Shown one piece after another: positions 1 through 41,209 of a stretch of DNA of 64,000 nucleotides. The notes below the pieces were generated by a model. The model was given only the letters and a program-made list of their open reading frames with translations. It ran no database searches and had not been told where the DNA came from. Each line of letters begins with the position of its first letter. The first letter of the stretch is position 1. This DNA is from Phyllobacterium endophyticum (GTDB lineage Bacteria; Pseudomonadota; Alphaproteobacteria; Rhizobiales; Rhizobiaceae), in the NCBI RefSeq assembly GCF_003010935.1, contig NZ_PGGN01000001.1, forward strand, positions 992,001 through 1,056,000, written 5' to 3'. Position numbers and translations under genes: made by a program.

Positions 1-1
1 G

Positions 2-4634: not shown

Positions 4635-4685
4635 TAGTGCCGCTTGGGTGACTCGAACACCTGACCCCATCATTACGAATGATGT
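4635..4685 (-). repeat. Orphan 3' fragment of tRNA-Thr(CGT), att-like site
   Basis: On the minus strand this reads the anticodon stem-loop (TTCGTAA loop), variable region, T arm and acceptor 3' strand of the tRNA-Thr gene found intact at 41134-41209. It stops where the D-arm should begin. Of 51 positions 49 match; one mismatch lies in the acceptor/T-arm junction and one in the CCA. It cannot fold as a tRNA. It is interpreted as the displaced half of a site-specific integration target. Confidence 0.8.
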
Positions 4686-5299
4686 ATATCTTCTCCATTT
4701 TGATCGTCCTGAGCGGAGTACCATTGATGCCAGTTGGGGCCATCGCGGCGCCCTCGCGGCGGATGGTGGCTGGATGCTCGCCAAGCGTCTGACGACAATC
4801 AGTTGGCGTACATGCCTGGCGGCAAGCTGATCGCCGAGCGTCCCGCTCTGCGCTTGACACGACCGTCGACGCGAAAGGCTACACTGAACTGCTGACCATG
4901 CGTCCGAAGGAACTGGCAGTTCATCTAGCGAACTTGAAGACGGCGCCGATCTCCGGCTTCAAGTCTTTTCTAGAAGAGCTTTCGAACAGGATGCTTTTTG
5001 CGGCGTCTGGTGCAAGCGTTTGATCCTGTCCTCGACCTCCGGCAGCCGGAGCGCCGTGGTCCTTTCCGATGGGCCACTTTAGCAACCCGATTCTCTGGCG
5101 ACGTAACATAACCGTCAATATCAATCCAACGTATAACTCACTCAAACAACCCGGTTATTTACCGGCACGTCGGTATGATGGAACATTCAGTGCGGGAGCG
5201 CTAGTTTGCTTCATATTGACATTCTGCAAGTGCTCGATTCAACCAGTGGGAAGGACCCAGGCTTTGACCGATCTGCTAAATCCAAAGAATGCTGCTGCG
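4686..5299. other. Gene-poor stretch next to the tRNA fragment
   Basis: About 600 bp without a convincing gene. Short open frames change phase often. One readable piece near 4855-5022 on the plus strand (containing GYTELLTMRPKELAVHLANL) has protein-like composition but no start, and no family was recognised; it may be a gene relic at the island border. A half-site GTATAACT preceded by CAAC lies at 5127-5138, similar to the dyad motif described for 6671, about 165 bp before the next gene. Confidence 0.4.
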
Positions 5300-5725
5300 A
5301 TGTGTACCCGTGATGCAAGGTCAGTCTCACACGCGTCGAAATCCAAATCCCGAAGTTTGGCCCGCGTTTTCGCCATCGTATTCGGCGTCCAGGCGGTCGT
5401 CGCTTTGGAGCTTGTTTCGACCGCACACGCGGGTCCCTGTACTAAAGAGATTGAAGCCCTTCAGGGGCGGGTCGACGCTGTACTTGAAGCCACTGCCGGA
5501 GCTGGACCTACACTCCCCGAGAGCCAATTTGCGGGTCTCCATCACGAACCTACACCTCAGTCGATCGCGCATGCGGAGGCACAAGCTGGTGAGGGGGCGG
5601 AAGGCGAACACGCCTTGGCGGGACTAGCGCGAGCTCGCGAGGCCGACAGGGCCGGTAACGCCCGCCTTTGTGATACAGCACTACACGACGTGCGGCGCGA
5701 AATTGCCCCTTTGGCAGCGGGCTGA
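5300..5725 (+). CDS. Small exported protein of unknown function
   Basis: 141 residues. The N terminus has basic residues (KSKSRSLAR), a hydrophobic core (VFAIVFGVQAVVALELV) and an AHA cleavage signal, so the mature protein should start at GPCTKEIEALQ and be periplasmic. The mature part is about 100 residues, Ala/Glu-rich and helical, with a His-Glu-Pro-Thr-Pro-Gln-Ser segment like that of short uncharacterised proteins common in Rhizobiales. The internal ATG at 5300 is preferred because it places the signal peptide near the N terminus; an upstream in-frame start at 5069 would add about 77 odd residues. Function is unknown. Confidence 0.6.
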   Translation: MCTRDARSVSHASKSKSRSLARVFAIVFGVQAVVALELVSTAHAGPCTKEIEALQGRVDAVLEATAGAGPTLPESQFAGLHHEPTPQSIAHAEAQAGEGAEGEHALAGLARAREADRAGNARLCDTALHDVRREIAPLAAG

Positions 5726-5829
5726 TTCAACACCGAACACAATGGTGACTCGGGAGTGTGCACCGGAGCGGACGAAGCAACGGTGCTAAGCGGCTCTTAT
5801 AGGCGACGCCACTTGCTCACGTCCCCTAG

Positions 5830-6603
5830 CTATGTGCGCCCGGTCGCTTCGAGGATGAGTTTAGTGATCTCGTCTGGTTTTGAGATCAGCGACAGATGAC
5901 TCGCCTTCACTTCAATCGTCTTGGCTCCCATGCGTTTGGCCATGAAACGCTCCAGGTCCGGATCTATCGTGCGATCTTCTGTAGAGACCGCATAGAAGCT
6001 CGGCTTGGACCGCCATGCCGCTTGGGTCGTCCGGCCCGCCAGAAGAGCTTTCTGAAATGGTTGCTGTACTGCATAAAGCACTCGAGACTTTGCTTCAGGC
6101 AGGTCACCGGCAAAATCGCGTAGGAACGCAATTTCGCTCAAGCGCCCCTCGTCACCATTGAATACAATGCCCGCCGTGGCAGGGGGCGTGGAGAACGTCT
6201 TCGCCAGCGCCGGGTAATCCTCACCCGCATCCGGCGCCCTTGCCGCAACATAGACGAGTGCTGAAACATTTGGATGCATACCTGCCTCTGTAACGATCAT
6301 TCCCGCAAACGAGTGTCCGACGAGGACCGTCGGGCCATCCTGCTGGGCGAGCACCCGCTCAGCGGATGCCACCGCTTCAGGCAACGTCGTCAAGGGGTTT
6401 TGAACGGCCGTAACATTGATCCCGGCGGCTTGAAGGCGAGCAATCACTTCCGACCAGCACGATCCATCTGCAAACAAGCCATGGACGAGGACGACGTTCC
6501 GAGCCAAGGCTGGGGGCGTCCGCGCCGCCATGCCACGGGAAGATATCAACGATACCGCGCCAGCGGCGAGGGCAACCGAAAATGCCCGCCTGTTCATAGT
6601 CAT
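5830..6603 (-). CDS. Alpha/beta hydrolase, Tat-exported
   Basis: Serine hydrolase of the alpha/beta fold, 257 residues. The N terminus MTMNRRAFSVALAAGAVS has a twin-arginine pair before a hydrophobic core and an AMAA-like cleavage region, so export by Tat to the periplasm is likely. The nucleophile elbow GHSFAG puts the catalytic serine at residue 98; HG at 41-42 forms the oxyanion region, D210 and H236 (KASHLSL) are likely triad partners. It resembles the EstC/salicylate-esterase-like hydrolases seen often in Rhizobiales. A GGAGG ribosome site lies six bases before the ATG. A perfect TATAC-N4-GTATA dyad sits 68 bp upstream. Natural substrate unknown. Confidence 0.85.
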   Translation of the reverse strand: MTMNRRAFSVALAAGAVSLISSRGMAARTPPALARNVVLVHGLFADGSCWSEVIARLQAAGINVTAVQNPLTTLPEAVASAERVLAQQDGPTVLVGHSFAGMIVTEAGMHPNVSALVYVAARAPDAGEDYPALAKTFSTPPATAGIVFNGDEGRLSEIAFLRDFAGDLPEAKSRVLYAVQQPFQKALLAGRTTQAAWRSKPSFYAVSTEDRTIDPDLERFMAKRMGAKTIEVKASHLSLISKPDEITKLILEATGRT

Positions 6604-6716: not shown

Positions 6717-8264
6717 TCATAGGCGGGCTTTCGGCTGAATCGGGTAGGCAAGCATGATCAACAACAAAGGTACGAGGGTAATTAGCGCAAGCACGGCCCA
6801 AGCATCGTTGATGCCCTGGACCAGCGCAGCCTTTACTATCATCGGGTTGAAAATAGTCTGAGCAATCAGATCAATCTTGCCCGACATGTCCGCGGCCGCA
6901 CCAGGAGCCATCCCAACGAACGCCTGCGTTCGTGCATCGCCGGCCAGGAGACCATTTACGATTGCGACACCGTGCGTGGCCGACCGGGTGTAGATCACCG
7001 AGTCCACCAGTGCCAACCCTATCGCGCCGCCTATGTTGCGCATCAGATTGAACAGACCGCTGGCATCCGGTATCCGCTCGTCTTGGATGTTGCCAAGCGC
7101 GAGGCGCGTTGGCGGAAGGAGGCAGATCATGATTGCCATGCCTCGCACGACTTGCGGCCAGAACATCCCGGCAGCATCGGTTTGCGGAATTTGCAGGGAA
7201 CTCGACCCAAGGCCAATCGCGAATGACAGGAAACCAATGGTCGAAAGCAATCTGGCGTCGAGGCGCTGTTCAAGCATGACTGCTAAGGGCGCAATCATGA
7301 GCTGCGCCATACCAGTCACAAGCATAGTCTCGCCTATTTGCAAGGCGTTGCGCCCCCTGACGTAAGCTAGGAACACCGGCATGAGATAGACCGACCCGAA
7401 TAGGCCGAATCCCAGGACGAAGCTCAGAATGCAGCCAAGGGCAAAGTTACGGTCTTTGAAATTATGCAAGTCGACAAGGGGCGTAAGCGAGTACCATGTC
7501 CGGAGGGTAAAAGCGGTCAGAGTGATCATGCTGAATGCACAAAGCGACAGGACAACCGAGCTCGACCAACCGCGTTGCGGGGCTTCTTTCAAAGCTATCT
7601 CCAGCGCTGCAAGACCAGTGGCCATCATTGCCAACGACCTGAAATCAATTGAACGGAAGTGCTTCAACTCGAATGTCTGGCGCGGGAGTAAACAAGCTGC
7701 CAATGCGGCTGCTAACAGCCCCGGGGCAACATTGATCAGGAACAGCCAGTGCCAGGAGTACGTTTCGGTAATCCACCCACCTACGATCGGGCCGACAGTG
7801 GGAGCCATCACTGCAACGACACCGGCGACTGTCGTGGCAACGTTTTGATGTCTAGGAGTAAACAACAGGAAAACCGCGGAAAAAACAGTGGGGATCAAGG
7901 TACCGCCCGAAAATCCCTGTATGGCCCGCCAGAGGAGCAAGGCATTGAAACTTTCGCTCTGTGCACATCCGACGGAAGCTGCGGTAAACAGCAATGCACC
8001 ATATGCGAAAAGCCGGCGCATGCTAAGCAGGCGGGTCAAGAATCCCGTTAGTGGAATAGCAATGATCTCTGCAATCAAATACGCAGTCTGTATCCAGCTC
8101 ATTTGATCCGGATTGATGTTCAAAGCGCCCTGGATGGTCGGCAGCGACGTCGCCACAATCTGAACGTCGAGAATGGCCATGAACATCCCGATGCACATCG
8201 CGAAGAAGCTGAGCCAGGTTGAACGACTTGGCTGAGCTTCGTCCGCGTCAGGCCCCCGCGTCAC
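6717..8264 (-). CDS. MFS drug:H+ antiporter, DHA2 (EmrB/QacA) family
   Basis: Inner-membrane exporter of 515 residues with about 14 hydrophobic helices. The first helix carries the family motif LDVQIVATSLPTIQGALN, typical of EmrB-type DHA2 proteins, and helix 5 carries the GPIVGGWI antiporter motif. The start is GTG at 8264, supported by GGAG seven bases before it. The gene overlaps the methyltransferase gene by 17 bp and is the last of a three-gene minus-strand operon with the polyketide synthase. This suggests it exports the polyketide product or a related toxic lipid (inference), although no EmrA-like adaptor is adjacent. Confidence 0.85.
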   Translation of the reverse strand: MTRGPDADEAQPSRSTWLSFFAMCIGMFMAILDVQIVATSLPTIQGALNINPDQMSWIQTAYLIAEIIAIPLTGFLTRLLSMRRLFAYGALLFTAASVGCAQSESFNALLLWRAIQGFSGGTLIPTVFSAVFLLFTPRHQNVATTVAGVVAVMAPTVGPIVGGWITETYSWHWLFLINVAPGLLAAALAACLLPRQTFELKHFRSIDFRSLAMMATGLAALEIALKEAPQRGWSSSVVLSLCAFSMITLTAFTLRTWYSLTPLVDLHNFKDRNFALGCILSFVLGFGLFGSVYLMPVFLAYVRGRNALQIGETMLVTGMAQLMIAPLAVMLEQRLDARLLSTIGFLSFAIGLGSSSLQIPQTDAAGMFWPQVVRGMAIMICLLPPTRLALGNIQDERIPDASGLFNLMRNIGGAIGLALVDSVIYTRSATHGVAIVNGLLAGDARTQAFVGMAPGAAADMSGKIDLIAQTIFNPMIVKAALVQGINDAWAVLALITLVPLLLIMLAYPIQPKARL

Positions 8265-8754
8265 GGCGCAGCTCCAAAAGCTCAGAATTCTCCGTCCGGA
8301 TTCTTACCGCAAGAACAAGGGCGTTGATGAGGGAAAAGACGAGGGAATACCAGACAAGCCCGAAACATAAGGGGAGAATTGCGATCTCTCCGATTACCAC
8401 GACATAGTTTGGATGCGAAAAGATACGGTACGGTCCGGTCCTTACAAGAGGCCGTCCGGGCAAGACGATGATGCGTGTAGTCCAGCGTTCGCCCAATGTT
8501 GCGAGGACCCACAATCGCATCCCCTGGAGCAAAATGAAAACAGCAAACCATTCTGCCGCAATAGGCCTGTCGCCGGCGAAGACCCACATCCCTGCTAGCC
8601 AAACGGCATGAACAACAACGATGAGCGGGTAGTGACCGGGCGAAGCTTCGTAGGCGCCCTTTGCGATGAGAGTTCTCGTATTGTGCCTTGCCAGCAAGAG
8701 TTCGCCAAGACGCTCGAGAGTAACGAAGCCAAGTAGCGCAAATGTCGCGATCAT
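8248..8754 (-). CDS. Isoprenylcysteine carboxyl methyltransferase-like membrane methyltransferase
   Basis: 168 residues, four or five membrane segments, and the ICMT/PEMT signature RTGPYRIFSHPNYVVVIGEI that forms the S-adenosylmethionine-binding part. It overlaps the upstream type III polyketide synthase gene (ATGA), so the two are translationally coupled. In known alkylresorcinol clusters such as srsAB of Streptomyces griseus, a methyltransferase of this family O-methylates the phenolic product of the type III PKS. By analogy this enzyme is likely to methylate a lipidic resorcinol or pyrone in the membrane rather than a prenylated protein. The specific substrate is inferred. Confidence 0.8.
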   Translation of the reverse strand: MIATFALLGFVTLERLGELLLARHNTRTLIAKGAYEASPGHYPLIVVVHAVWLAGMWVFAGDRPIAAEWFAVFILLQGMRLWVLATLGERWTTRIIVLPGRPLVRTGPYRIFSHPNYVVVIGEIAILPLCFGLVWYSLVFSLINALVLAVRIRTENSELLELRRDAGA

Positions 8755-9914
8755 GCTGCTCTCTTCAGTGAAACACAGTTGACGCTGAAGCCCGGTCCCA
8801 TGGCGGTAAGCAAGGTGCGCGATGGCAAACCCGCTTCGATGAGACGCTGCAGAACGAACAGCGCCGTGGGTGCCGACATATTCCCATGCTCGGCCAATAC
8901 GTCGCGCTCATGGTTCAAAGCGCCTTGACCAAGGCCAAGCGCCGCCTCTAAAGCGACCAGAACTTTCGCCCCGCCGGGATGACAGGCAAACCGATCGATA
9001 TCACTAAGTGCGAGTCCTGAGCGCCCGACGATCTCGGAAATAGCAGGGGCGATGTGCTGTTCGGCAAAGGGTGGAATAGCGCGATCAAAAATGACGCCGA
9101 GCCCTTGTTTGTCAACGCTCCATCCCATTATGCCGAGTGTGTCGGGCCAAGTGTGCTGGCCAGACATTTCCACCGCGGCGATTCCCTCGTTTGCGACCGC
9201 AAGAACACATGCCGCCGCGCCATCACCGAAAAGCGCGCTCGCCACTATATTGGCTTTGGTAAGCTGGTCCATTCGGAATGCCAATGTGCACAGTTCAACA
9301 GCAACCAACAAGACGATCGTTCCAGGTCTTGATGCTGCCAGTCGCGAAGCAATGGAAAACCCCGACACAGCACCCGCACAGCCCAGGCCAAACACGGGAA
9401 CGCGCTCGATATCGTCGCGAAATCCCACTTGGCGAGCCACGCGCGCTTCCAGCGTTGGAGTCGCGATACCGGTTGATGAAATTGTCACCACGGTATCCAC
9501 CTCATGTCCCCTGATACCCGCCTTCTCCAAGGCGCTGATGGCCGCCGAGACGAACAAACTGCTCGCTCCCTCGATATAAGCAGCATTTCTTTCAGGCCAT
9601 CCCAAGGGCTGCAGATACCATTCTAACGGTTTGACGGCGTAGCGCTTACGAATGCCTGAACTTTCAAATACCTTTGCCAGACGATCGAAGTCCCTGAACC
9701 GCGCCGAAAACGCTTGATGAGCGGCGACAGCGGCGTCACGTTGCTCAATAATGTGAGCGGGCACGGCTGTGGCGACGGAGACCAGTTTCACGGCTCCGGG
9801 CATCGATACTCCTGCCGGTAGTGCCGACGCTCTCGATGCTGCAAAGGTGCTGCCATCACGACCCTGAAAGGCATGTCTGTTCGACGGTAGTTGCACGGTG
9901 CGGACACTTGGCAT
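8751..9914 (-). CDS. Type III polyketide synthase (chalcone/stilbene synthase family)
   Basis: Condenses a starter acyl-CoA with malonyl-CoA units to make alkylresorcinols, alkylpyrones or similar aromatics. 387 residues. The catalytic triad is intact: Cys179 in FGLGCAGAVSG, His312 in FACHPGGAK and Asn345 in EHGNMSAPT. The first about 40 residues are longer than in most family members; another ATG at residue 38 exists, but a GGAG ribosome site six bases before 9914 favours the long form. It is first in an operon with an ICMT-like methyltransferase and an MFS exporter. Two dyad motifs (9992 and 10156) lie upstream. Product identity cannot be told from sequence. Confidence 0.9.
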   Translation of the reverse strand: MPSVRTVQLPSNRHAFQGRDGSTFAASRASALPAGVSMPGAVKLVSVATAVPAHIIEQRDAAVAAHQAFSARFRDFDRLAKVFESSGIRKRYAVKPLEWYLQPLGWPERNAAYIEGASSLFVSAAISALEKAGIRGHEVDTVVTISSTGIATPTLEARVARQVGFRDDIERVPVFGLGCAGAVSGFSIASRLAASRPGTIVLLVAVELCTLAFRMDQLTKANIVASALFGDGAAACVLAVANEGIAAVEMSGQHTWPDTLGIMGWSVDKQGLGVIFDRAIPPFAEQHIAPAISEIVGRSGLALSDIDRFACHPGGAKVLVALEAALGLGQGALNHERDVLAEHGNMSAPTALFVLQRLIEAGLPSRTLLTAMGPGFSVNCVSLKRAA

Positions 9915-10938: not shown

Positions 10939-11568
10939 CTACTTGTTCAAAACTGGCTTGATGGCTTCATAGACCTTGACGAGTTCAGCAAGTGTTCGCA
11001 CGGCCATTTTCTCCATCAGGTGTCCACGATGGATCTTAACCGTTATCTCGCTCAGGCCGAGTTCCCACCCGATCTGCTTGTTCATCAGGCCTCTTGTCAC
11101 CAGGGCAATAACCTCGCGCTCCCGACTCGTCAGACTCTCATAGCGTTTCACCAGCGCGGAAAGTTCGCCGTCGCTTGTGCGGCGAGCCTGGTCGAGAATC
11201 AGCGCATTGGAAACCGCATCAAGCATGTCCTGGTCGCGGAACGGCTTGGTGAGAAAATCGATGGCGCCCGCCTTCATTGCCCGAACCGACATTGGGACAT
11301 CACCGTGGCCGGTCATGAATATGATGGGGATATTGGTGCCAAGGCGAGCGAGCTTGTCCTGGAAATCGAGGCCACTTACTCCGGGCAGCCTGATATCAAG
11401 GACAAGGCAGCTGCCCGAAGAAACCTTGGAGGGACGGTCAAGCAATTCTGACGTGGAGCCGAACACTTCGACATTCAAGCCGACCGACTCGAAAAGATTT
11501 CCCAGTGCATCTCTCATATGTGCATCATCGTCGACGACAAGGACGAGTGGTGATCCTTGTCCGTCCAT
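10939..11568 (-). CDS. FixJ-like response regulator, copy 1
   Basis: Two-domain transcription factor of 209 residues. The receiver domain has the acidic pocket VVDDD near residue 11, the phosphoacceptor Asp58 in LVLDIRLPG and Lys108 in FLTKPF. The C-terminal LuxR/FixJ helix-turn-helix includes LTSREREVIALVTRGLMNKQI and LGLSEITVKIHRGHLMEKM. The start at 11568 overlaps the kinase stop by one base (TGATG); a longer open frame to 11676 lies inside the kinase gene and is not credible. It is the likely phosphorylation partner of the kinase at 11568-13190. A second pair of the same type sits at 33093-35245. Target genes are unknown; the shared dyads in this region are candidates. Confidence 0.9.
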   Translation of the reverse strand: MDGQGSPLVLVVDDDAHMRDALGNLFESVGLNVEVFGSTSELLDRPSKVSSGSCLVLDIRLPGVSGLDFQDKLARLGTNIPIIFMTGHGDVPMSVRAMKAGAIDFLTKPFRDQDMLDAVSNALILDQARRTSDGELSALVKRYESLTSREREVIALVTRGLMNKQIGWELGLSEITVKIHRGHLMEKMAVRTLAELVKVYEAIKPVLNK

Positions 11569-13190
11569 CACCCTGTCCCTTGTACCAGCGGTATGGTGAA
11601 CTCGAAAATGGTGCCTGCCCCTGGTTTGGAACTTGCACTGATGCTTCCGCCATGCGCATTCACAATGGAACGGCAAATCGACAGCCCCATGCCCATGCCA
11701 TCTGGCTTGGTCGTGTAAAAGGGACTAAATAGCTTCGTTCGCGTTTCAGGCGTCAGACCCGGGCCATTGTCGTGAATCTTAACAAGGGCGGCCCGTTCTT
11801 CGGCGAACGTTTCTATCAGCAGCTTGCGAGTGTTGCCCGCCGCGTGTGTCATCGCCTGAATGGCGTTTAACACCAAATTCAGAATTACCTGCTGCAGTTG
11901 CACGCGATCCCCATTGACCCCGGGCAAGTCGGTGGCGAGATGGAACTGCAAGCTTACTTGATGGATGTCAATTTCGCGTCGCACAAGCGCCACCGTCTCA
12001 TCAAGAATTTCGTTGAGGTTGACGTGGGTGGACTTCGGCGGTGATTTCGCCGATAGAGCGCGCAGGTTCTTGATGATCTCGCTGGCCCGATGTGCATCGG
12101 CGATCATCCCTTCCATCGACAACTGGATTTTCTCGAGATCTGGTACGTCTCGTTGTAGCCAGCGCAAACCGGCTCCTCCATTGGCAACCACAGCTGCCAG
12201 GGGCTGATTGAGCTCATGAGCGATCGAGACCGTCAATTCGCCAAGGGTGGCGACCCGGGCGACATGTGCCAGCTCCGCTCGCGCTGCGTGGAGCTGGTTC
12301 TCGGCTTCCCGCCTGCCGGTCACATCCATGATACTTAGCAAAACCATATCGAGGGCGGGACGATTCGCAGGGAAGGCGACGTTGTATAAAACGGCCATCT
12401 GCCTGCCTTGCGCATCGTCGATGATTGTTTCGGCTTCGTAGCTCGACTTGCCAGACCAGACTGCCGCAAGGAACTTCCATGCATTGTCGACGTCAGCGTT
12501 GATGAGTTTGGGCAACATGGTCTCAAGTGCGATGATATCTGCGGCATTGAACATCTTCAGTGCCGTATCGTTCGCGTTGATCAGCCTTATGGTATTTGGC
12601 TCCCCGATGGGAGATTCCAAGTCCATGCTGCGGGCATGATCGATATCCCTCACGCCAGCGGTTTTGAGCTTGTCGACGGCCGCTTTGAGTTGTGTGAAAT
12701 CCAACTGAAGAATGCCAACTCCCGTCGTTAGAAAAATTGTGCGATAACGCTGTTCACTTTCAGCCAGAACGGCAATCGCAGCTTTTACCCTGACGGCGAG
12801 AAGTGTTGTAATCCCAATGGCAGCAACGCTGACGAAGCAACGTCCCAATGAGTCTTCAAGCGCAGGCAACCCATCCCCATGCGAGATCAAAAACCCCAGG
12901 ACGGTCAACCCGATGCAACCAGAACCGATTACAACAAGGCCCGTTTGCGTCGCGAAGTTGAGCGATAGCAACACCACGAGCACATAAAGCACGGCAATGG
13001 CGATGTCCAAGCTTGTCAGGGCGTCGAGCAGAAAAACGACCGCAGCAATGATGCCAGCAGCGGGTCTCGAGTATCTTGACTGGCAAGCGAAACGCAAGAT
13101 GACATAAAAGGGCACCTTAGCCGGCCGCGCAGATCTGGCGAGGCCAATTTTTTCTCTCGCGATCGCTGTTCTTGTCTTAATCGTGGACAT
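11568..13190 (-). CDS. Membrane PAS histidine kinase, FixL/TodS-like, copy 1
   Basis: 540 residues. Three to four membrane helices at about 43-137 form a compact sensor without a large periplasmic loop. A PAS-like region follows at about 145-295 (SEQRYRTIFLTTGVGILQLDF to SIMDVTGRREAENQL). The transmitter has the phospho-accepting His325 in SIAHELNQPLAAVV, N-box Asn442 (NLVLNAIQAM), DNGPG at 474-478 and GMGMGLSICRSIV near 498-510, so all catalytic boxes are present. GAGGGTGAA precedes the ATG. It is co-transcribed with the FixJ-like regulator. No haem-binding PAS histidine could be assigned, so the signal is unknown. It is strikingly similar to the kinase at 33734-35245. Confidence 0.9.
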   Translation of the reverse strand: MSTIKTRTAIAREKIGLARSARPAKVPFYVILRFACQSRYSRPAAGIIAAVVFLLDALTSLDIAIAVLYVLVVLLSLNFATQTGLVVIGSGCIGLTVLGFLISHGDGLPALEDSLGRCFVSVAAIGITTLLAVRVKAAIAVLAESEQRYRTIFLTTGVGILQLDFTQLKAAVDKLKTAGVRDIDHARSMDLESPIGEPNTIRLINANDTALKMFNAADIIALETMLPKLINADVDNAWKFLAAVWSGKSSYEAETIIDDAQGRQMAVLYNVAFPANRPALDMVLLSIMDVTGRREAENQLHAARAELAHVARVATLGELTVSIAHELNQPLAAVVANGGAGLRWLQRDVPDLEKIQLSMEGMIADAHRASEIIKNLRALSAKSPPKSTHVNLNEILDETVALVRREIDIHQVSLQFHLATDLPGVNGDRVQLQQVILNLVLNAIQAMTHAAGNTRKLLIETFAEERAALVKIHDNGPGLTPETRTKLFSPFYTTKPDGMGMGLSICRSIVNAHGGSISASSKPGAGTIFEFTIPLVQGTG

Positions 13191-13381: not shown

Positions 13382-14719
13382 TCACAGCTTTAGGCGATCG
13401 AATTTGCGCCTCCAGCTGTCCGCGACAGCCCGCAGTGCAACTCTGGCGGTCGTCTGCCCTTGCAGTGTACCTGAAATGCCAGCGCGCAGATCAAGTTCAA
13501 GGGAGCCCCAGTGGGCGTCATTTGGATTGGCCTGAGCCGTTTTCATTTGTGCAGCGGCAGCCGCAGTCCAGCCGTAGGTTTCCACGATATCCGGGTCCGT
13601 CAAAACGGAGAGGCGAGCCGAAGCGTTTCCCTTCTCCATGGATCGGCGTGCCCATTCCTTGCTCGTGATGTGCTGAATGAATTCGAAAGCCCACCCCTTG
13701 TTTCTTGATGCGGATGGTACGGCGAACGACCATACGAAGAATGGACTTTTGCTCTCTTCAGGTCTCTGGGAACCGGGCACGACCGCCCAATCCCATCGCC
13801 CGGCTGTTTTTGAGCCCTTTGACTTGTTCAATGGGGTTCCTGAAGCGTTCAGCGTGATAGACATGGCGTAGCGATCATTCTGACCATTCGCAATTATCTC
13901 GTCCCATTCCCACGTTACCGCCTCCGGGGGCATGACTCTGTGTTTTGTCATCAAATCCCCGTAATACTCCAATGCGTCAATGGCTTCTTCTGTGTCAATC
14001 AGGATCGTCCTCGTCTTAAGGTCGTAGAACGAGCCGCCGTTCGAGAGCAAGAACGGGCAGAAATGGTTGCTGATTGCAGGTCCTTGACGACCGCAGGTTC
14101 CTACCCCGTACCGATAGGGCGCACCTCGACGTGTCAGAGCCTCTGCGGCAGCCCGAAATTCGGCAAATGTCGCGGGCGCGCCCGCAAAGCCTGCCGCCTT
14201 GAGCAATTCCTTCTGGTAGTGGAGTATGTACACCGTTGCGCGATAGGGGATGCCGCATAGTTTGCCATCGACGGACACTGCATCAAGCGTTCGGGGCGCG
14301 AAATCACTGATGTCGAAATCAGATGCATGTTGGCCCGCGGCGGCTGACAACAAACTCTTGTGGTCTTCAACATAGGGGTGCATCCATCCAACCATGGAGG
14401 AACCCATTTGCACAATATCGAAGCTTGTGGGTCCTTGACCTGACATTTCGGCCCGACAGCGTACGACAAGCGCTTCCATCGGCAATTGCACATACTCGAC
14501 ATCAATGCCGGTGTCTTTTGTGAAGGCAGGGATTGCGTCCTGAAGGATTGTTCCTTTCCAGGATGCGTTGTCGCCTAGGACAAGGAGTTTGGCGGGTTTC
14601 TCCCCCGATGCCGTGCTCGCTGTCCTGGCTGAGCCGAGCGCGGCAAGATTGAAGCCGGCCAGGGTGGATCCGATAAGCGCGCGTCGACTAATCAGGCCAG
14701 TCTTGTTTGAACCGGACAT
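13382..14719 (-). CDS. Sugar ABC transporter substrate-binding protein (MalE/UgpB type)
   Basis: Periplasmic binding protein of 445 residues, the usual size for family-1 solute-binding proteins. The N terminus GLISRRALIGSTLAGFNLAALGSA has a twin-arginine pair and a hydrophobic core, so Tat export is likely. The ATG at 14719 was chosen because GGAGGGAG lies just before it; starts at 14731 and 14734 are poorer. It is the distal gene after two permease genes in the same operon. The family usually binds di- or oligosaccharides, polyols or glycerol phosphates; the ligand is not readable here. Confidence 0.85.
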   Translation of the reverse strand: MSGSNKTGLISRRALIGSTLAGFNLAALGSARTASTASGEKPAKLLVLGDNASWKGTILQDAIPAFTKDTGIDVEYVQLPMEALVVRCRAEMSGQGPTSFDIVQMGSSMVGWMHPYVEDHKSLLSAAAGQHASDFDISDFAPRTLDAVSVDGKLCGIPYRATVYILHYQKELLKAAGFAGAPATFAEFRAAAEALTRRGAPYRYGVGTCGRQGPAISNHFCPFLLSNGGSFYDLKTRTILIDTEEAIDALEYYGDLMTKHRVMPPEAVTWEWDEIIANGQNDRYAMSITLNASGTPLNKSKGSKTAGRWDWAVVPGSQRPEESKSPFFVWSFAVPSASRNKGWAFEFIQHITSKEWARRSMEKGNASARLSVLTDPDIVETYGWTAAAAAQMKTAQANPNDAHWGSLELDLRAGISGTLQGQTTARVALRAVADSWRRKFDRLKL

Positions 14720-14737
14720 GGCTCCCTCCATCACCCG

Positions 14738-33092: not shown

Positions 33093-33737
33093 TTAGGTTT
33101 TGCCTGACTTGTCTAACACAGGCCGAAGCGCCTCGTAGGCCTTGACGAGTTCCGCTAGTGTCCGAACGCCCATTTTCTCCATAAGATGACCACGGTGAAT
33201 TTTAACGGTTATCTCGCTGACACCGAGCTTGCCTGCAATCTGTTTGTTCATCAAGCCGCTTGTCACCAGAGCGATCACCTCACGCTCACGAGCCGTCAGG
33301 CTTTCATACCGCGTCATCAGTGCAGAGCGCGCGCCGTCACTTTCTCGGCGAGATCGATCGAGGGCCAGTGCATTGGCAACCGCATCAAGCATGTCCTGAT
33401 CCCGGAACGGTTTGGTGAGAAAGTCGAGAGCACCTGCTTTCATGGCCCGTACTGACATCGGAACATCACCATGCCCCGTCATGAAGATGATGGGGATATT
33501 GTTACCCAGTTTCGCCAATTGATTCTGAAAATCAAGGCCGCTGACACCTGGCAGCCGAATATCGAGAACAAGGCAGCTCTCGGCAGAAATCTTGGCTGGG
33601 CGAGCGAGAAGTTCCGCCGTTGAGCCAAACAGTTCCACGCGCATGCCCACAGATGCGAAAAGGTTGCCCAAGGCCTCTCGCAAATGCTGATCATCGTCAA
33701 CGACGAAGACAATTGGCGTTGTGAGTTCGGCCATCAT
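33093..33737 (-). CDS. FixJ-like response regulator, copy 2
   Basis: 214 residues, receiver plus LuxR/FixJ DNA-binding domain. Phosphoacceptor in LVLDIRLPG, Lys in FLTKPF, helix-turn-helix LTAREREVIALVTSGLMNKQI and LGVSEITVKIHRGHLMEKM. Over most of its length it differs from copy 1 (10939-11568) by scattered substitutions only. Two ATGs at 33737 and 33734 overlap the kinase stop, with GGGAGA before them; the first is taken. Cognate kinase is the gene directly upstream. Confidence 0.9.
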   Translation of the reverse strand: MMAELTTPIVFVVDDDQHLREALGNLFASVGMRVELFGSTAELLARPAKISAESCLVLDIRLPGVSGLDFQNQLAKLGNNIPIIFMTGHGDVPMSVRAMKAGALDFLTKPFRDQDMLDAVANALALDRSRRESDGARSALMTRYESLTAREREVIALVTSGLMNKQIAGKLGVSEITVKIHRGHLMEKMGVRTLAELVKAYEALRPVLDKSGKT

Positions 33738-35245
33738 CCGATCTCCCTGTTGAATGGAATGGTGAATTCGAATGTGGTTCCCGCTCCGGGTTCCGAACTT
33801 GCACTTATGCCCCCGCCGTGCACGGTCAAGATTGACCGACATATCGACAGACCCATGCCCATTCCGTCCGGCTTCGTTGTATAAAACGGATCGAAGAGGT
33901 TACTAGAGATCTCAGGAGGAATGCCCGGACCGGTGTCATGCACACTGAACAGGACCGCGCTTTCCTCTCGCGAGGATCTCACCAGTAGCTCTCGCCGGCT
34001 CTCAGGTACATGCGCCATGGCTTGAATCGCGTTCAACAACAGATTGAGAACAACCTGCTGCAGCTGCACCCGATCACCGACGACCTTTGGCAGATCTTCT
34101 GCAAGATCCACTCTCAAACTCACCTGGTTTATATCGATTTCGCGTTGCAGCAGCGTGATTGTCTCCTCGGCGACCTCATTCAAATCAACATTGTCGGGGT
34201 CTGGGGGCGACTTGACCGACAATCCGCGCAAATGCTTGATGACATCGCTGGCGCGGGTTGCATCGGCTACCATGGATTCCATCGACGATTGTACTTTCGT
34301 CAGATCGGGCACTTCTCGCTTGAGCCAACGCAGGCCAGCTCCTCCGTTTGTGACCACAGCTGCCAAAGGCTGGTTCAACTCATGGGCAATGGATACCGTC
34401 AGTTCTCCAAGGGTAGCGACGCGCGCGACATGCGCCAACTGACTACGCGCCGCATGGAGTTCGTTTTCAGCTTCTCTTCTTGCTGTGACATCCATGATGC
34501 TGATCAAGACCATGTCGAGAGCTGGCCGATCGAAGGGCACCGCTACATTGTAGAGAAAAATCAGTTGGCGACCGTCCGACATCTTCAAAACGGCTTCGGC
34601 TTCATAACTCTGGTTTCCGGCCCATAGGGACGCCAGCAACTTCCATACTTTTCCCTCCATATCCTCACTAACAAGTGACGGCAGCAGCAGCTCAAGAGCG
34701 CCAACATTTGGGGCGTTGAACATGTTCAGGGCAGTATTGTTGGCATTGGTCAGCTTGAACATTTTCAAGGCACTGCGGGCAAAGCCGGGCTCGCGTCGCT
34801 CGATATCATCAATGCGTTGCACATTGTTGGACTTGTACCTGTCAAAAGCGTTTTTTAACCCTGTGAAGTCCATCTGAAGGATACCGACACCGGTCGCCAA
34901 GAATATCGACCGGTAACGCTGCTCGCTATCAGCCAAAATTCCAATCGCCGCCTTTACCCTGAAAGCGAGAAAAGTTGTTATTCCGATAGCAGCGAGGCTG
35001 ACCAAGCATCGTCCAATGGAGTCAGCCGGGAGTTGGTGCCCATGTGACAGCAGGAAGCTAAGGAGCGTCAGCCCCATACAACCGGCACCAATCGCCACAA
35101 GCTCGATCTTTCCGGCGAAATTGAGCGCGAGCAGTACGACGACGACGTAGAGAACAGCGATGGCGATGTCAAACGTCGTCAGAGTATCAAGAATGAAAAC
35201 CGCTACAGCTATGACAGCTGCAGCTAGCGGTGCAAATCTCGCCAT
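33734..35245 (-). CDS. Membrane PAS histidine kinase, FixL/TodS-like, copy 2
   Basis: 503 residues from the ATG at 35245, which has GGGGA before it and places the first membrane helix at the N terminus; an open frame to a TTG at 35419 would add 58 residues not matching copy 1. Membrane helices at about 5-95, PAS region at about 105-255, phospho-accepting His288 in SIAHELNQPLAAVV, then N, G1 (DTGPG) and G2 (GMGMGLSICRSIL) boxes. Very similar to the kinase at 11568-13190. It is divergent from the Dps operon, and the shared upstream region contains a perfect dyad. Confidence 0.85.
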   Translation of the reverse strand: MARFAPLAAAVIAVAVFILDTLTTFDIAIAVLYVVVVLLALNFAGKIELVAIGAGCMGLTLLSFLLSHGHQLPADSIGRCLVSLAAIGITTFLAFRVKAAIGILADSEQRYRSIFLATGVGILQMDFTGLKNAFDRYKSNNVQRIDDIERREPGFARSALKMFKLTNANNTALNMFNAPNVGALELLLPSLVSEDMEGKVWKLLASLWAGNQSYEAEAVLKMSDGRQLIFLYNVAVPFDRPALDMVLISIMDVTARREAENELHAARSQLAHVARVATLGELTVSIAHELNQPLAAVVTNGGAGLRWLKREVPDLTKVQSSMESMVADATRASDVIKHLRGLSVKSPPDPDNVDLNEVAEETITLLQREIDINQVSLRVDLAEDLPKVVGDRVQLQQVVLNLLLNAIQAMAHVPESRRELLVRSSREESAVLFSVHDTGPGIPPEISSNLFDPFYTTKPDGMGMGLSICRSILTVHGGGISASSEPGAGTTFEFTIPFNREIG

Positions 35246-35410
35246 GCGAAAGTCCCCAAATAGCCGTTCCGACCGGCCTATATCAGATTGGTTGCATGGC
35301 TGCACAATCTTAAGTAGCGCGAAGTCGCTGAAAATTTCAGGCGCTCCCAGCGGTGTTGCTGTTCGCCTCGCGCACGCCAACACCTCGAGCCGATGTAAAA
35401 TTCTCCGTCC

Positions 35411-35424
35411 TATACTCAAGTATA
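35411..35424. promoter_or_regulatory. Dyad TATAC-TCAA-GTATA between kinase and Dps operon
   Basis: Perfect 5-4-5 dyad in the divergent region, 166 bp before the kinase ATG and 100 bp before the Dps ATG. Same spacing as at 6671 and 10156. Confidence 0.5.
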
Positions 35425-35523: not shown

Positions 35524-36093
35524 ATGAGCCTGTCAATTCATACAGATAACCATGTGAGGTCACCCTACCCAAGTGATGCTGCCGCCGAAGTTTCGGCGGC
35601 CCTGACGACCCTGCTTGCGGACACGTTCGCCTTATACCTAAAGACGAAAAGCTTTCATTGGCACATGGCCCCGACGGGTTTTGGTATCTTTCAGCCTCTG
35701 CTGGACGAACAAGCCGAACAGATACTTTCGATTACAGACATTATCGCCGAACGTATCCGCGAACTCGGAGGCACAACTCTCCATTCGATTGGTCATATCG
35801 GGCGTCTTCAAAGACTTGCCGATAACGACACCGACTATCTCACGCCCGCAGAGATGTTGACCGAACTTGCCAGCGACAACAGGCAGCTCTCTTCATTCCT
35901 GCGCACCACCCGCGATGTCTGCGACATGCACTGGGATTTCCAGACGGCAGAATATTTCGAGACATGGATCGACGAGGCCGATGGCCGAACCTGGTTTCTC
36001 GTCGAAGCGTGGCGTGCGCACCTCAGGTCGATCCCCACAACGGCTGCGGCACTGCAGGCGCCAACGACACTACCTGAAAGGCTGACAAAATGA
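35524..36093 (+). CDS. dps: Dps/ferritin-like DNA-protection protein
   Basis: Iron-storing, DNA-protecting protein of starved or oxidatively stressed cells; 189 residues. The ferroxidase residues are present: KSFHWHMAP gives His45 and His47, and LLDEQAEQI gives Asp61 and Glu65. The four-helix pattern is complete, with about 20 extra residues at the C terminus. It is first in an operon with the oxalate decarboxylase gene (ATGA overlap). Such coupling links acid/oxalate stress with iron and peroxide protection. Confidence 0.85.
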
Positions 36094-37313
36094 ACGCTTT
36101 CAACCGTCGTGAGGCACTCCTGGCACTATCTGCAGGAGGCGTTGTTGCCGCCACAGGGACAGCGAGTTTTGCCGCGGGCTTGCCCCAACCGCAAGGTTCC
36201 CACGTGGGCGGCGATGACCCTGGGCCGCGAAATCCCGATCGGGACGTCCAAAATCCCGACATTCTCAATCCACCGGCTACCGATGCCGGCACCTTGCCCA
36301 ACCTGCGCTTCTCCTTCGCGGATGCGCCGACAAAACAATACGCCGCGGGCTGGACCCGCCAGGTTACGAAACGGGAACTTGGAATATCCAAGAGCATCGC
36401 CGGTGTTGATATGCGGCTGAACGCCGGCGGTGTTCGAGAGTTGCACTGGCACAAAGAAGGCGAATGGGCCTACATACTTTATGGAACTGCCAGAGTTACA
36501 GCTGTCGATCCCGATGGCAGAAATTTCGTCGGCGATCTTGGTCCTGGTGATATCTGGTACTTTCCATCCGGTACGCCGCACTCCATCCAGGGGCTTGGGC
36601 CCGACGGTTGCGAATTTCTGCTTGTTTTCGACGATGGCGGTTTTGATGAAGACAGCACATTCCTGCTGAGCGACTGGTTCCGGCATATACCCAAGAGCAT
36701 TCTGGCCAAGAATTTCGGCGTGCCTGCAGCTAGCTTCGATCATCTCCCGGCACCCAGTGACCGCTACATCTTCAATCTGCCCGTTCCGGGGAGCCTTGAC
36801 AGCGACAGGATTGCTGGCGCGACAACAGTCCCAAACGGGTTCGTACATCGGATGAGTTCACAGACTCCCATAAAATCCGCCGGAGGCACTGTGCGCATAA
36901 CAGACTCGCGCAATTTTCCCGCGGCGAAAACGATTGCCGCAGCGCTTGTGGAAATCGAGCCCGGGGGCATGCGAGAGTTGCACTGGCACCCGAACACCGA
37001 TGAATGGCAATACTATATTCAAGGCATCGGACGAATGGGTGTGTTTGCGGCCAACGGTGCCTCTCGCACGTTCGATTTCGCAGCCGGGGACGTAGGCTAT
37101 GTGCCATTCGCGACGGGTCATTACGTCGAAAACACTGGCGACAAGCCGCTTGTGTTTCTCGAGATGTTCAAAAGTGACCATTATGCGGATGTGTCCCTCA
37201 ATCAGTGGCTGGCGCTAACGCCACCAGAACTCGTCTCGGGGCATCTGAATTTCGACGCTGCGACTATGAAGGCTTTAAAAGCAGGCAAGCAGCCCGTCGT
37301 GGGTTCCGCTTAG
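36090..37313 (+). CDS. oxdC: Oxalate decarboxylase, bicupin, Tat-exported
   Basis: Mn-dependent conversion of oxalate to CO2 and formate with consumption of a proton. 407 residues. The N terminus [14 protein letters not shown] has a twin-Arg pair and hydrophobic core, so periplasmic location is likely. Cupin 1 has metal ligands His119, His121, Glu125 ([10 protein letters not shown]) and His164; cupin 2 has His298, His300, Glu305 and His344. The active-site lid reads FDEDST, keeping the Glu that corresponds to the decarboxylase-determining lid Glu (SENST of Bacillus OxdC), which favours decarboxylase over oxidase. It overlaps dps and precedes a formate channel gene. Confidence 0.9.
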
Positions 37314-37386
37314 CCGAGGGTCGACGCCACAAATCTTGGCGGAGCCAAAAAACATCTCAATGACACTACTCCCTAGGAAAACTGCC

Positions 37387-38211
37387 ATGTACGAAGAAGC
37401 AATTTCCAGACTTTCCGAATCCGGCAGGTCAAAGTCCAGCGCACTAACGGCTAACCCGATTTCATTCATCGTCGGCTCGGCGATGGCGGGTGCATATATC
37501 GGCTTCGGCGATATCATCATGTTTACCGTCGGCGCTCATGCCGATCCTGCGTGGAGTCATCTCGTGATGGGTGCCGTTTTCGCGTCGGCACTCACGATCG
37601 TCATCTTTGCCGGGTCTGAACTTTTCACAGGTATGGCCATGTATATGCCGCTTGCCCTTCTGAGCGGCAAGACTGGTCTGATTGACCTCCTGCGTGTTTG
37701 GATACTGTGCTGGCTGGGCAATTTCGCTGGAGCATTCTTGCTAGCCGTGCTTTTTAAACTTGGCGGGGGAGGTGTCCTTCTCGGCGACGGCAGTCCGGCT
37801 TTTTTTGCAGCGGTTGCGGCAAAAATCAGTGCCCCGGCCCATGAGCTTTTTGCACGCGGCATCATATGCAACTGGCTGGTTTGCCTGGCAATCTGGATGG
37901 CTTATCGAACTGAAAACGATGCTGCAAAGGTCTTCTTGATATTCTGGCCGATCATGATTTTCGTAGCCGCTGGTTTCGAACACTGCGTGGCGAACATGTT
38001 CGCTTTTTCACTGGCACTCCTCGGCCCTCATCCTGCGACCATCAGTGTATACGGCGCGTTGCACAATCTGGTATTTGTCACCTTGGGCAACATTGTTGGC
38101 GGCGGGATCATGGTGGCCGGCGGATACTGGGTGCAATTCGCAGGCACTGCACAGGCCACTTCAACGCTCGCGGCGCGCCGGACAACTCCTCCGGTCAGCA
38201 GGAATAGCTGA
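37387..38211 (+). CDS. Formate/nitrite transporter family channel (FocA/NirC type)
   Basis: Pentameric inner-membrane channel of 274 residues with six helices. Family stretches: AGAYIGFGDIIMFTVG, FAGSELFTG (first reentrant loop), GIICNWLVCLAIWMA and AAGFEHCVANMF. These include the pore His in the FEHCVANM motif. The ATG at 37387 has AGGAAA before it; starts at 37360 and 37336 are less well placed. It sits between oxalate decarboxylase and a formate-dehydrogenase-like gene, so formate is the likely cargo. Confidence 0.85.
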   Translation: MYEEAISRLSESGRSKSSALTANPISFIVGSAMAGAYIGFGDIIMFTVGAHADPAWSHLVMGAVFASALTIVIFAGSELFTGMAMYMPLALLSGKTGLIDLLRVWILCWLGNFAGAFLLAVLFKLGGGGVLLGDGSPAFFAAVAAKISAPAHELFARGIICNWLVCLAIWMAYRTENDAAKVFLIFWPIMIFVAAGFEHCVANMFAFSLALLGPHPATISVYGALHNLVFVTLGNIVGGGIMVAGGYWVQFAGTAQATSTLAARRTTPPVSRNS

Positions 38212-38248
38212 ACACACCCTATCAACACTGTTCGAAAGCGAATTTACC

Positions 38249-40570
38249 ATGGCCAGCAAACGACCCGACGGAATTGAAAGATATGATGCGCCTGCCGGAG
38301 GTTGGGGAGCGTTGAAGGCGGTAGCGGAGAGCCTCTCACGACAGCAGATCGTTGCGCAGGGCGCTGCGACACTCTTGAAGGTCAATCAACCCGACGGATT
38401 TGACTGTCCGGGCTGCGCATGGCCTGATCCGCGGCATACATCGTCGTTTGAGTTCTGCGAAAACGGTGCCAAGGCTGTAACGTGGGAATCGACCGCCAAA
38501 CGTCTGACACCTTCATTCTTTGCATCTCACACTCTCACAGAACTGTGGGATTGGCATGATCATGAGCTCGAAAATCAGGGGCGGCTGACTCACCCGCTGA
38601 TCTATGATTCGTCTTTGGACACCTATGTGGAAATTCAATGGGACGCCGCCTTCCGGATCATCGCCGCGGCGCTCAATGAACTTCCCGAACCGGACATGGC
38701 CGAATTCTATACTTCTGGCAGGGCTTCGAATGAAGCCGCGTTCCTCTTTCAACTTTTCGTGCGGGCTTACGGGACTAATAATTTTCCCGACTGTTCCAAT
38801 ATGTGCCACGAAGCGACGAGCGTCGGGCTGCCGCAGTCGATCGGCGTTGGCAAAGGCACTGTCACGCTCGAAGACTTTGATCATGCCGATGCGATCTTCA
38901 GTTTTGGGCACAATCCCGGTACTAATCATCCACGCATGATGACGACGTTGCGGGAAGCCGCAAAGCGCGGCGTTCCGATAGTCGTATTCAATCCGCTCAA
39001 GGAGCGGGCACTTGAGCGATTTGCTTCACCTCAAAGTGCCGTCGAGATGGCAACTTTGTCATCGACAGAGATCGCATCGGCCTATCACCAGGTGCGACCA
39101 GGAGGCGACGTTGCAGTTCTCAAGGGAATGATGAAGCGAATTTTCCAGCGCGACAGACAGGACATTGACAATGGCGGAAGCGGCCTGCTCGATCGCAGTT
39201 TTATCGCCGAGCACACGGATGGCATCGATGCCTTGCAAGCCGACATCGATGCGACTGCCTGGGAGGATGTCGAGGCGATCTCGGGTCTCACGCAGAAGGC
39301 CATCGAAAGCGCGGGCGACGTTTACCTGAAGGCCAGCAATGTCATTCTCTGCTACGGCATGGGGATCACGCAGCACAGGAACGGTACTTCCAACGTGCAG
39401 CAGATCGCCAATTTTCTGATGTTGCGCGGAAATATCGGTCGCCAGGGCGCCGGCATATGCCCGTTGCGAGGTCATTCGAATGTTCAAGGTGATCGCACCG
39501 TAGGTATCACCGAAGCGCCCAGCGCCGCCTTGCTTGATGGCATGGAACGCGCCTTTGGTTTTCGCCCGGTTGCGGGAAAAGGGCACAATGCTGTTGAGGC
39601 GATTGAAGCTATCCAGGATGGCCGGTCAAAAGCACTCATCTGCCTCGGTGGGAACCTCGCTGTGGCAATGTCCGACCCCGAGGCGACTTTCGCCGGCATG
39701 CGCAAGCTTGATCTGGCGGTTCACCTAACGACCAAGCTCAACCGTTCACATCTGCTAACCGCGAAGACGTTGATCTTGTTGCCTGTACTCGGCCGTACGG
39801 ATTCGGATGTTCAAGCGACCGGTCCACAATCCGTGACCGTCGAGGATTCAATGTCGATGGTCCATGCATCGCGAGGCTTTCTGAAACCGCCCAGCGAAGA
39901 GGTTCGTTCTGAACCGGCTGTAATTGCCGGTATCGCAAAAGCCACCCTTGGAAGCCGGCACGCCATTGCGTGGGATGCAATGATCGAAAACTACGACAGA
40001 ATCCGTGACAAGATCGAGGTCGTTTTTCCGGACTTCCATGATTTCAACGCAAGGATACGGCAACCAGGCGGGTTTCGTCTGAGCATTCCAGCTTCCAACC
40101 GCGATTGGCGAACCCCAGCCAGGAAAGCCCAGTTCCTGGTCACCGCAAGCCTTGATGAAGATCCTCAGCTGTCGGATCCCGACCTCCTTACTTTGACGAC
40201 CATTCGCAGCCACGATCAGTATAACACTACCATTTACGGTATGGATGATCGCTACAGGGGCGTGTTCGGGCGGCGAGATGTCATCTTTCTCAATAGCGAC
40301 GATTTGGCCAGCAGGGGTTTGGCTGACGGAGATATACTTGACGTTGAAGCAGCCCGTAACGCTGCTGAGATCGATGACCGCCGACGCCTGGTCCGCCGGC
40401 TCACTGCAATCGCGTATAATATCCCGCGCGGTTCCGCAGCCGGATACTACCCGGAGATGAACGGCCTGATCGCCTTGTCGCACTACGACCGTCGCTCCGG
40501 AACTCCTGGATTCAAGTCGATTCCCATCCGCATCAGGCTTGCGACTGCGCCGGATGGAGGTCGTGTGTGA
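38249..40570 (+). CDS. FdhF/YdeP family molybdopterin oxidoreductase
   Basis: 773-residue molybdenum-cofactor oxidoreductase of the YdeP branch. The N terminus has PDGFDCPGCAWPDP, only a CxxC where true formate dehydrogenases bind a 4Fe-4S cluster with four Cys. The active-site region reads FPDCSNMCHEATS, with Cys where FdhF has selenocysteine, followed by FGHNPGTNHPRMM and a C-terminal molybdopterin-binding domain (LTTIRSHDQYNTTIYGMDDRYRGV). E. coli YdeP contributes to acid resistance; here the neighbours suggest formate oxidation or a related redox role. The start at 38249 avoids 68 upstream codons that overlap the formate channel gene. Confidence 0.85.
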   Translation: MASKRPDGIERYDAPAGGWGALKAVAESLSRQQIVAQGAATLLKVNQPDGFDCPGCAWPDPRHTSSFEFCENGAKAVTWESTAKRLTPSFFASHTLTELWDWHDHELENQGRLTHPLIYDSSLDTYVEIQWDAAFRIIAAALNELPEPDMAEFYTSGRASNEAAFLFQLFVRAYGTNNFPDCSNMCHEATSVGLPQSIGVGKGTVTLEDFDHADAIFSFGHNPGTNHPRMMTTLREAAKRGVPIVVFNPLKERALERFASPQSAVEMATLSSTEIASAYHQVRPGGDVAVLKGMMKRIFQRDRQDIDNGGSGLLDRSFIAEHTDGIDALQADIDATAWEDVEAISGLTQKAIESAGDVYLKASNVILCYGMGITQHRNGTSNVQQIANFLMLRGNIGRQGAGICPLRGHSNVQGDRTVGITEAPSAALLDGMERAFGFRPVAGKGHNAVEAIEAIQDGRSKALICLGGNLAVAMSDPEATFAGMRKLDLAVHLTTKLNRSHLLTAKTLILLPVLGRTDSDVQATGPQSVTVEDSMSMVHASRGFLKPPSEEVRSEPAVIAGIAKATLGSRHAIAWDAMIENYDRIRDKIEVVFPDFHDFNARIRQPGGFRLSIPASNRDWRTPARKAQFLVTASLDEDPQLSDPDLLTLTTIRSHDQYNTTIYGMDDRYRGVFGRRDVIFLNSDDLASRGLADGDILDVEAARNAAEIDDRRRLVRRLTAIAYNIPRGSAAGYYPEMNGLIALSHYDRRSGTPGFKSIPIRIRLATAPDGGRV

Positions 40571-41133
40571 GGTGCCTTTTGTGTCGTCAGTAACCGCCCA
40601 GTCTTGCTCTTTCAACAGGCCTAGGACGCGACGGGATCTTCTAGTAGTTCCAGTCAGGGGTCGTAGAACGCTTTTGGCGATCTGTTCTTCCCGGCGCGTC
40701 CGACCATGATCAGCACAAATTTATGGCTTTCAATTGGAGCATGGCCAGCTTTGCCCTCCCCGGGGCGTGGTGCGTTACGCCGGTGCGGTACAGACAGCTT
40801 CGTATTAGAACTAGAGGCAAAAGGGTGCCGAAATCCTGCCCCTCACTCCACGAACATCAATCGTGTTCATCGACGCGACAGGCAACAAAGACTGCAGCGA
40901 TCCCATAAATCCGACGTTTGGACGCGGCGCTGCATTAGGAGCCGGTTACCGACGCTAATCAAGAAACCGTGGCGCAAATTGAAGCGTAAGAAGCTCGGAG
41001 TCGCCTCAGAACCGTTTCGCGCAATTGAGTTGACAGGCGAAGCCAACTGTCACGCAAATATCAGCTATAAATCGGTTGGAGCTTTTGTAGGTCGCGGTAA
41101 TGAGTGGTAGCAATGCAGTCGCAAAGCTGAAAA
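40571..41133. other. Gene-poor stretch at the tRNA-proximal end of the island
   Basis: About 560 bp with only unconvincing short frames. This is where a tRNA-targeting integrase gene would be expected, but no integrase motif could be read in any frame. Confidence 0.4.
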
Positions 41134-41209
41134 TGGTGCCGCTTAGGTGACTCGAACACCTGACCCCATCATTACGAATGATGTGCTCTACCAACTGAGC
41201 TAAAGCGGC
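41134..41209 (-). tRNA. tRNA-Thr (anticodon CGT)
   Basis: On the minus strand a complete cloverleaf: acceptor GCCGCTT/AAGCGGC, D arm GCTC-AGTTGGTA-GAGC, anticodon arm CATCA-TTCGTAA-TGATG giving anticodon CGT (reads ACG, Thr), variable GGGTC, T arm AGGTG-TTCGAGT-CACCT, discriminator A and encoded CCA. 76 nt. Its 3' half is duplicated at 4635-4685. Confidence 0.95.

Follow-up and report, generated by a model that had tools for sequence, protein, structure and literature searches.

The tRNA-Thr(CGT) gene, its displaced 3′ half and the genes between them

The window is a 64,000-nucleotide stretch of the 5.5-Mb genome of Phyllobacterium endophyticum (designated G000; contig C4, positions 992001-1056000), and its sole tRNA gene is an intact tRNA-Thr(CGT) on the minus strand (41134-41209; identified by both ARAGORN and Rfam). 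This gene is the putative integration target, and its 3′ half recurs 36,499 bp away in the same orientation. An attL-like copy of 57 bp (41128-41184, minus strand) covers the tRNA from position A26 onward and 6 nt past its 3′ end, and an attR-like displaced copy (4629-4685, minus strand), also starting from A26, aligns with it at 54/57 positions (95%), the three mismatches all being C/T. Within the tRNA proper, the displaced fragment corresponds to positions 26-74 at 48/49. The initial annotation had described a 51-bp repeat at 49/51 in the same orientation, a tRNA gene whole on one side only and a displaced half on the side expected for integration; our alignment reproduced the repeat and extended it to 57 nt, the only intact copy is the one at 41134-41209, and the displaced half does sit 3′ of the tRNA. 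Because the G000 genome contains just five matches to the tRNA (the gene, the fragment, one match at 83% covering positions 8-61 and two weaker ones), the fragment is not a common dispersed repeat, the reading that annotation had held out against its own proposal. Over the 304 kb around the fragment, the fragment itself matched at E 2e-20 and the next matches had E values of at least 0.06.

Between the two copies lies a 36.4-kb cargo-only island (4686-41133). Just inside attR, in the zone where prophages carry int (4686-5829), no integrase was detected. Next, on the minus strand, come an alpha/beta hydrolase (5830-6603), an operon of an MFS transporter, an ICMT-type methyltransferase and a type III polyketide synthase (PKS; 6717-9914), a response regulator and histidine kinase (10939-13190), a sugar-type ABC transporter (binding protein and two permeases) with a LacI regulator (13382-17685), and an RND efflux permease with its adaptor (22474-26759). 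A second RND permease and adaptor occupy the plus strand (27559-31970), followed on the minus strand by another response regulator and histidine kinase (33093-35419), paralogous to the first pair. The two pairs are in the same orientation, share a 300-nt stretch that is 76% identical, and each matches relatives of the other at 73-78%; this repeat probably breaks the assembly of one of the relatives discussed below (G018).

The segment nearest the tRNA (35524-40570, plus strand) encodes a ferritin-like (DPS) protein, an oxalate decarboxylase bicupin (OxdC), a formate/nitrite transporter and an FdhF/YdeP oxidoreductase. OxdC matches TIGR03404 with 549 bits against a cut-off of 254, and the FdhF/YdeP oxidoreductase, whose true start lies at ~38270 as judged by the start of the family match, matches TIGR01701 at 938 against a cut-off of 582. 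Because these four genes share one direction, they would by arrangement form a single operon. Oxalate decarboxylation uses up a proton and yields formate, so that, judging by the gene families, the operon could plausibly help the bacterium to use oxalate or tolerate acid on plants, and what is known of these families makes oxalate decarboxylation, formate handling and acid tolerance the likely role of the operon. The remaining cargo falls, by family, into transport, efflux, regulation and the one type III PKS operon.

Extent of the insertion, its empty site and the search for an integrase

To the right of the tRNA, the plus strand encodes a coxS-type [2Fe-2S] protein (Pfam) and then two ORFs that we labeled coxL- and coxM-like by analogy (41461-45220). 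The tRNA and sequence of its right flank are conserved in 19 relatives in the genus, and coxS lies within 1 kb of tRNA-Thr(CGT) in 13 of the 19. To the left of the displaced fragment is a second accessory segment (1-4628, plus strand), with an ABC transporter, an inositol-monophosphatase family protein and an SBF-like transporter, which extends 4.8 kb left of the window through binding protein, LacI, PiT and DUF47 genes. The ABC transporter and inositol-monophosphatase module (34-3422) is also found on Ensifer/Rhizobium plasmids at ~73% nucleotide identity (best 8 of 1895 records).

The SBF gene had been taken for the conserved left flank, and an empty site with coxS, tRNA and SBF side by side had been proposed. 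In fact this gene is accessory: it was matched in 19/19 relatives and stood beside tRNA-Thr(CGT) in 0/19, and the core begins 4.8 kb left of the window. We also rejected the idea that SBF belongs to a core block that had moved; at 20 SBF loci, SBF alone matches and its neighbors do not. The real empty site is the tRNA followed by an MFS gene, as found in G009 and G013 (P. zundukense), where conserved alignment starts after 65-66 bp. The annotation of the enclosed genes as accessory is supported. The left-core match resumes 0.7 kb past the tRNA in G002 and 3.8-48 kb past it in 12 other relatives, at the MFS gene in some and at a gene further on where the MFS gene is absent; in G007, G010, G015 and G018, the sequence stretch or contig ends before the left-core match. 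In G000, the left core (the MFS gene) resumes after 45.9 kb, at C4 ~987,197, 4.8 kb left of the window. Because the block comprises 36.4 kb from tRNA to fragment and 9.4 kb from fragment to core, this distance to the MFS gene means that another 9.4 kb is accessory. We conclude that tRNA-Thr(CGT) faces a composite 45.9-kb block, of which the 9.4-kb insertion is probably the earlier part. About 10-29 kb left of the window (C4 ~962.7-981.7 kb), G000 carries a further insertion of ~19 kb relative to G002, G009 and G013, in which its flanks nearly adjoin.

The far junction of the 9.4-kb segment, scored as a decayed tRNA end, gave a score reached by 31/2000 shuffles, by 42-50/5000 shuffles and by 5-7/1234 other windows, a weak resemblance that is suggestive. 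Among the occupants of this hot spot (15 genomes), G000 and G002 alone stand out for tRNA ends near the core boundary. In G002 (contig C1, L033), a 640-bp insert 3′ of tRNA-Thr contains a small exported-looking ORF (125 aa) and has a decayed tRNA 3′ end on its far side; we considered this insert as a remnant of the 36.4-kb island and rejected it, as no similarity was found. The acceptor stem of tRNA-Thr(CGT) has A6 with T in G002, G007, G009, G013 and G018 and T6 with A in G000 and others; the decayed G002 fragment reads TGTGCGG, nearer the swapped-pair form.

Comparison of GC and codon use inside and outside, one of the checks the annotation had pointed to, gave GC near native (55.0% in the block, 56.0% in the right core, 55.7% in the adjacent left core and 57.6% over C4 872-972 kb) and GC3 alike (61.8 inside vs 62.1 outside; Mann-Whitney p 0.39; 17 vs 13 genes). 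We thus discarded foreign base composition as a mark of the block. The suggestion that the island is old is doubtful; the repeat copies have 3 differences in 57 nt, a short sequence, against 13-17% at 4-fold sites in core genes of sister species. So few differences suggest, as far as so short a sequence can tell, that the G000 insertion postdates the divergence of G000 from every relative sampled. The earlier proposal of an integrative element at the tRNA thus stands in its tRNA-targeted insertion and falls in its conserved SBF flank, in its 36.5-kb extent (45.9 kb) and probably in its old age.

That no integrase would be seen was correct. The 11 PF00589 matches in the G000 genome all fall outside the block, and a tblastn search for remnants, run with five integrases as queries, yielded nothing better than E 0.4; a match at E 0.001 (query L235) was the tRNA sequence read as protein and was dismissed. 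By eye, no PF00589 match was among those listed within 50 kb 3′ of tRNA-Thr(CGT) in 20 genomes of the genus, some of whose contigs are shorter than that. Likewise, no integrase was among the matches listed for the insertions of 11 relatives (25 of 117 families; Pfam, 117 ORFs of at least 150 aa, those crossing stretch ends dropped). Pfam scans of window ORFs showed no serine recombinases, and in 29 of these ORFs (3475-41110, SBF included) no conjugation or mobilization gene was among the Pfam matches. Neither phage structural genes with an integrase, as in a prophage, nor, as far as Pfam scans go, an integrase of its own with transfer genes, as in an ICE or IME, was found in these ORFs, and no ICE/IME relics were found in the island. 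On contig C7 of G007, what is left of the 3′ half of a further tRNA-Thr-like gene (L240, 4243-4296, decayed; anticodon read by eye as GGT) lies ~750 bp from a PF00589 match, and a second tRNA-Thr may thus have received an island there.

Prophages with the same footprint and the history of the cargo

When IMG/VR was searched with the tRNA 3′-half pattern, we obtained 17 stretches on 16 contigs: 12 with the intact tRNA, four with the 3′ half alone (L228, L229, L231 and L233), and one (L224) that looks like a tRNA truncated where the locus ends. The four fragments start at A26, except that in L231 and L233 one further base, which may match by chance, moves the start to C25; the pattern demanded identity from C27, so that it shows a 5′ stop at A26 and later starts could not appear. 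On the element side of each, at a distance of 83-100 bp, is an open frame resembling an integrase gene, and both frames scanned (L229 and L231) are tyrosine integrases by Pfam with an Arm-DNA-bind_3 domain. On one contig (L223 and L229), the intact tRNA and the fragment lie ~40 kb apart, in the same geometry as in the window. Because these integrase-linked fragments start at or beside A26, the breakpoint of the window fragment is that of a known kind of insertion. Prophages at tRNA-Thr(CGT) in IMG/VR, such as IMGVR_UViG_2920822456_000001, are therefore like our segment in their tRNA, their start at A26, their far-end half and their size of ~40 kb, whereas in them an integrase gene sits immediately inward of the fragment and our segment has no integrase and no phage gene seen in Pfam scans. 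Phage RHph_N65 also has a copy of 45 nt (tRNA 32-76, 95.6%), with an HNH gene 0.15 kb and an integrase 0.8 kb away, and this copy starts at about position 32, not at A26.

We consider it likely that a tyrosine integrase set a 36.4-kb island, cargo-only and plasmid-linked, into the 3′ half of tRNA-Thr(CGT) beside a 9.4-kb insertion. The enzyme would have acted at the anticodon arm; the tRNA would have been rebuilt from the copy brought by the element, and its former 3′ half displaced to the other end of the insert, as the anatomical footprint indicates. Since there was no integrase or remnant inside, and no PF00589 match listed within 50 kb 3′, the enzyme is one we infer. The element now appears to be cargo only: as far as the scans reach, it has no integrase and no recognized transfer gene. 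It would have lost its int and transfer genes, or else an integrase would have been supplied in trans by a phage or another element at this tRNA. The annotation took the island to be fixed; perhaps an integrase acting in trans could still use both remaining att copies. The cargo would be part of a cluster, also borne by a repABC megaplasmid of the genus, that moved horizontally, and the island would have landed beside the other 9.4-kb insertion at the same site.

In contrast to the empty tRNA-Thr(CGT) of G009 and G013, the same tRNA is filled in G018 and G007 with a homologous block. The G018 island lies partly on contig C26 and partly on contig C2, whose link we deduced, with a 13-kb part inverted and the PKS operon and hydrolase absent from the block; the G007 island is also split over contigs, with just its two ends readable (8.5 kb and 4.3 kb). 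In both, the far end consists of a match to window 5115-5708, then, about 1.1 kb further along, TATGCGGCACCA (tRNA 65-76), and then the core MFS gene, so that 12 nt of the tRNA end are kept. This order puts the apparent far limit of the island where the window has its tRNA fragment. The tRNA-proximal ends differ among G000, G018 and G007.

In G013, nearly all of the cluster is on a 990-kb replicon with repC, the megaplasmid p_unnamed1 of P. zundukense A18/3m (NZ_CP104972.1), at 102.9-136.8 kb. This copy resembles the window in nearly the whole cargo, at 75-85% nucleotide identity in the main blocks, and differs in lying on a repABC megaplasmid with no tRNA, in having about half of the cluster inverted and in missing the MFS gene of the PKS operon. 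No tRNA or att was found beside it, and when we searched for the empty site of the cluster on the second replicon, the flanks matched different contigs and repeated sequences. A 21.8-kb contig of G009 carries the hydrolase and at least the part of the cluster matching window 22.5-40.5 kb. The oxalate/formate operon is plasmid-borne in Phyllobacterium sp. 628 too; in G018, G007 and G002, other contigs carry the PKS operon, and the largest contig of G013 holds it a second time.

These plasmid copies bear on a different history, in which the fragment is the scar left by another, since decayed element (e.g. a prophage), and the cargo arrived by homologous or IS-driven recombination and never traveled with att. 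The megaplasmid cargo without att, an annotated ISNCY transposase 2.9 kb from the first gene of that cluster, the inversions that separate the arrangements in G000, G018 and G013, and the lack of an integrase inside the island would all fit. We nevertheless regard it as unlikely, given that in G018 and G007 the cluster stops precisely where the tRNA 3′ end and the core begin, similar limits with similar cargo in two lineages, and that the G000 repeat is still at 54/57.

We compared a tree of concatenated OxdC, FocA and YdeP with a tree of three core genes. In the island tree, G000 grouped with G013 and G009 (96/96 protein, 100/99 DNA), with G018 and G007 outside; in the core tree, G018, G007, G002, G013 and G009 grouped together (100/100), with G000 outside. 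By the AU test, each data set rejects the clade of the other: with the island data, p is 0.0019 for DNA and a marginal 0.044 for protein, and with the core data, 1.5e-5 for protein and 8e-16 for DNA. This conflict argues, for these three genes, that the oxalate/formate operon has moved horizontally, and we infer that the direction was from plasmid to chromosome. Identities at 4-fold sites, island vs core, were 56.7/46.8 for G000-G013, 59.7/75.3 for G018-G013, 95.1/87.0 for G018-G007, 88.7/83.2 for G013-G009 and 47.8/46.4 for G000-G018, the last of which alone fits common descent. The island counts drop one kinase row, in which G018, G007 and G009 were represented by the paralogous kinase; this shifts the values by at most 2.7 points and leaves the conclusions unchanged. 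Because single genes vary in 4-fold identity, the cargo may be a mosaic.

The same numbers speak to whether the island already occupied the tRNA in an ancestor shared by G000 with the G018/G013 clade, with later losses in G002, G009 and G013. The like identities of G000 and G018 in island and core (47.8 vs 46.4) and the similar content at the same site are what such an ancestor would have left. The placement of the G000 operon beside its G013/G009 counterparts and the rejection of the core topology (marginal for protein, p 0.044), the far greater divergence of G018-G013 cargo than core (59.7 vs 75.3), and a repeat that looks too well kept for such an age make this quite improbable. Duplication of a tRNA fragment with no integrase involved, which would accord with the lack of one in the block, is very hard to credit given the breakpoint at A26 shared with integrase-bearing prophages, the matching geometry and the empty sites of relatives.

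Returning to insertion by a tyrosine integrase, we can put forward, as a tentative and rather doubtful extension, that an integrase-less cargo cluster shuttles between repABC megaplasmids and tRNA-Thr(CGT) by means of borrowed phage integrases and has been captured in at least two independent events, in the lineage of G000 and in that of G018/G007.

Classification and implications

We would class the segment as a CIME-like island that carries cargo only. A CIME is a cis-mobilizable element, as worded in PMC5704250, and the segment is like the elements described there in keeping attL and attR, here direct repeats in the tRNA 3′ end, in showing no integration gene (no integrase in tyrosine scans, nor a serine one via Pfam), and in its tandem position at one target gene; no transfer gene turned up in the Pfam scans of its 29 ORFs. 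It is a candidate CIME that differs in having its cargo also on a megaplasmid without att sites; this plasmid-borne homologue suggests a source other than ICE/IME decay. Shewanella CGI48 at tRNA-Trp, a composite genomic island (PMC8978831), is similar in that two adjacent insertions share a single tRNA; it differs from our window, where the far junction of the 9.4-kb segment is only weakly recognizable.

We found no paper linking oxalate decarboxylase, rhizobia and a genomic island, and for Phyllobacterium genomic islands, no such island was named in the titles or opening lines of abstracts among the matches listed. Since relatives have a similar cluster, whether at the same tRNA or on a megaplasmid, we regard this as an ordinary kind of genomic island whose cargo is unusually well traced. 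For the genus, these data make tRNA-Thr(CGT) an insertion hot spot in Phyllobacterium. They also provide a compact case in which an empty site, occupied sister sites, the cargo on a megaplasmid, and integrase-bearing prophages with the same footprint can all be compared, and through this four-way comparison the movement of an integrase-less gene cluster from plasmid to chromosome becomes testable.
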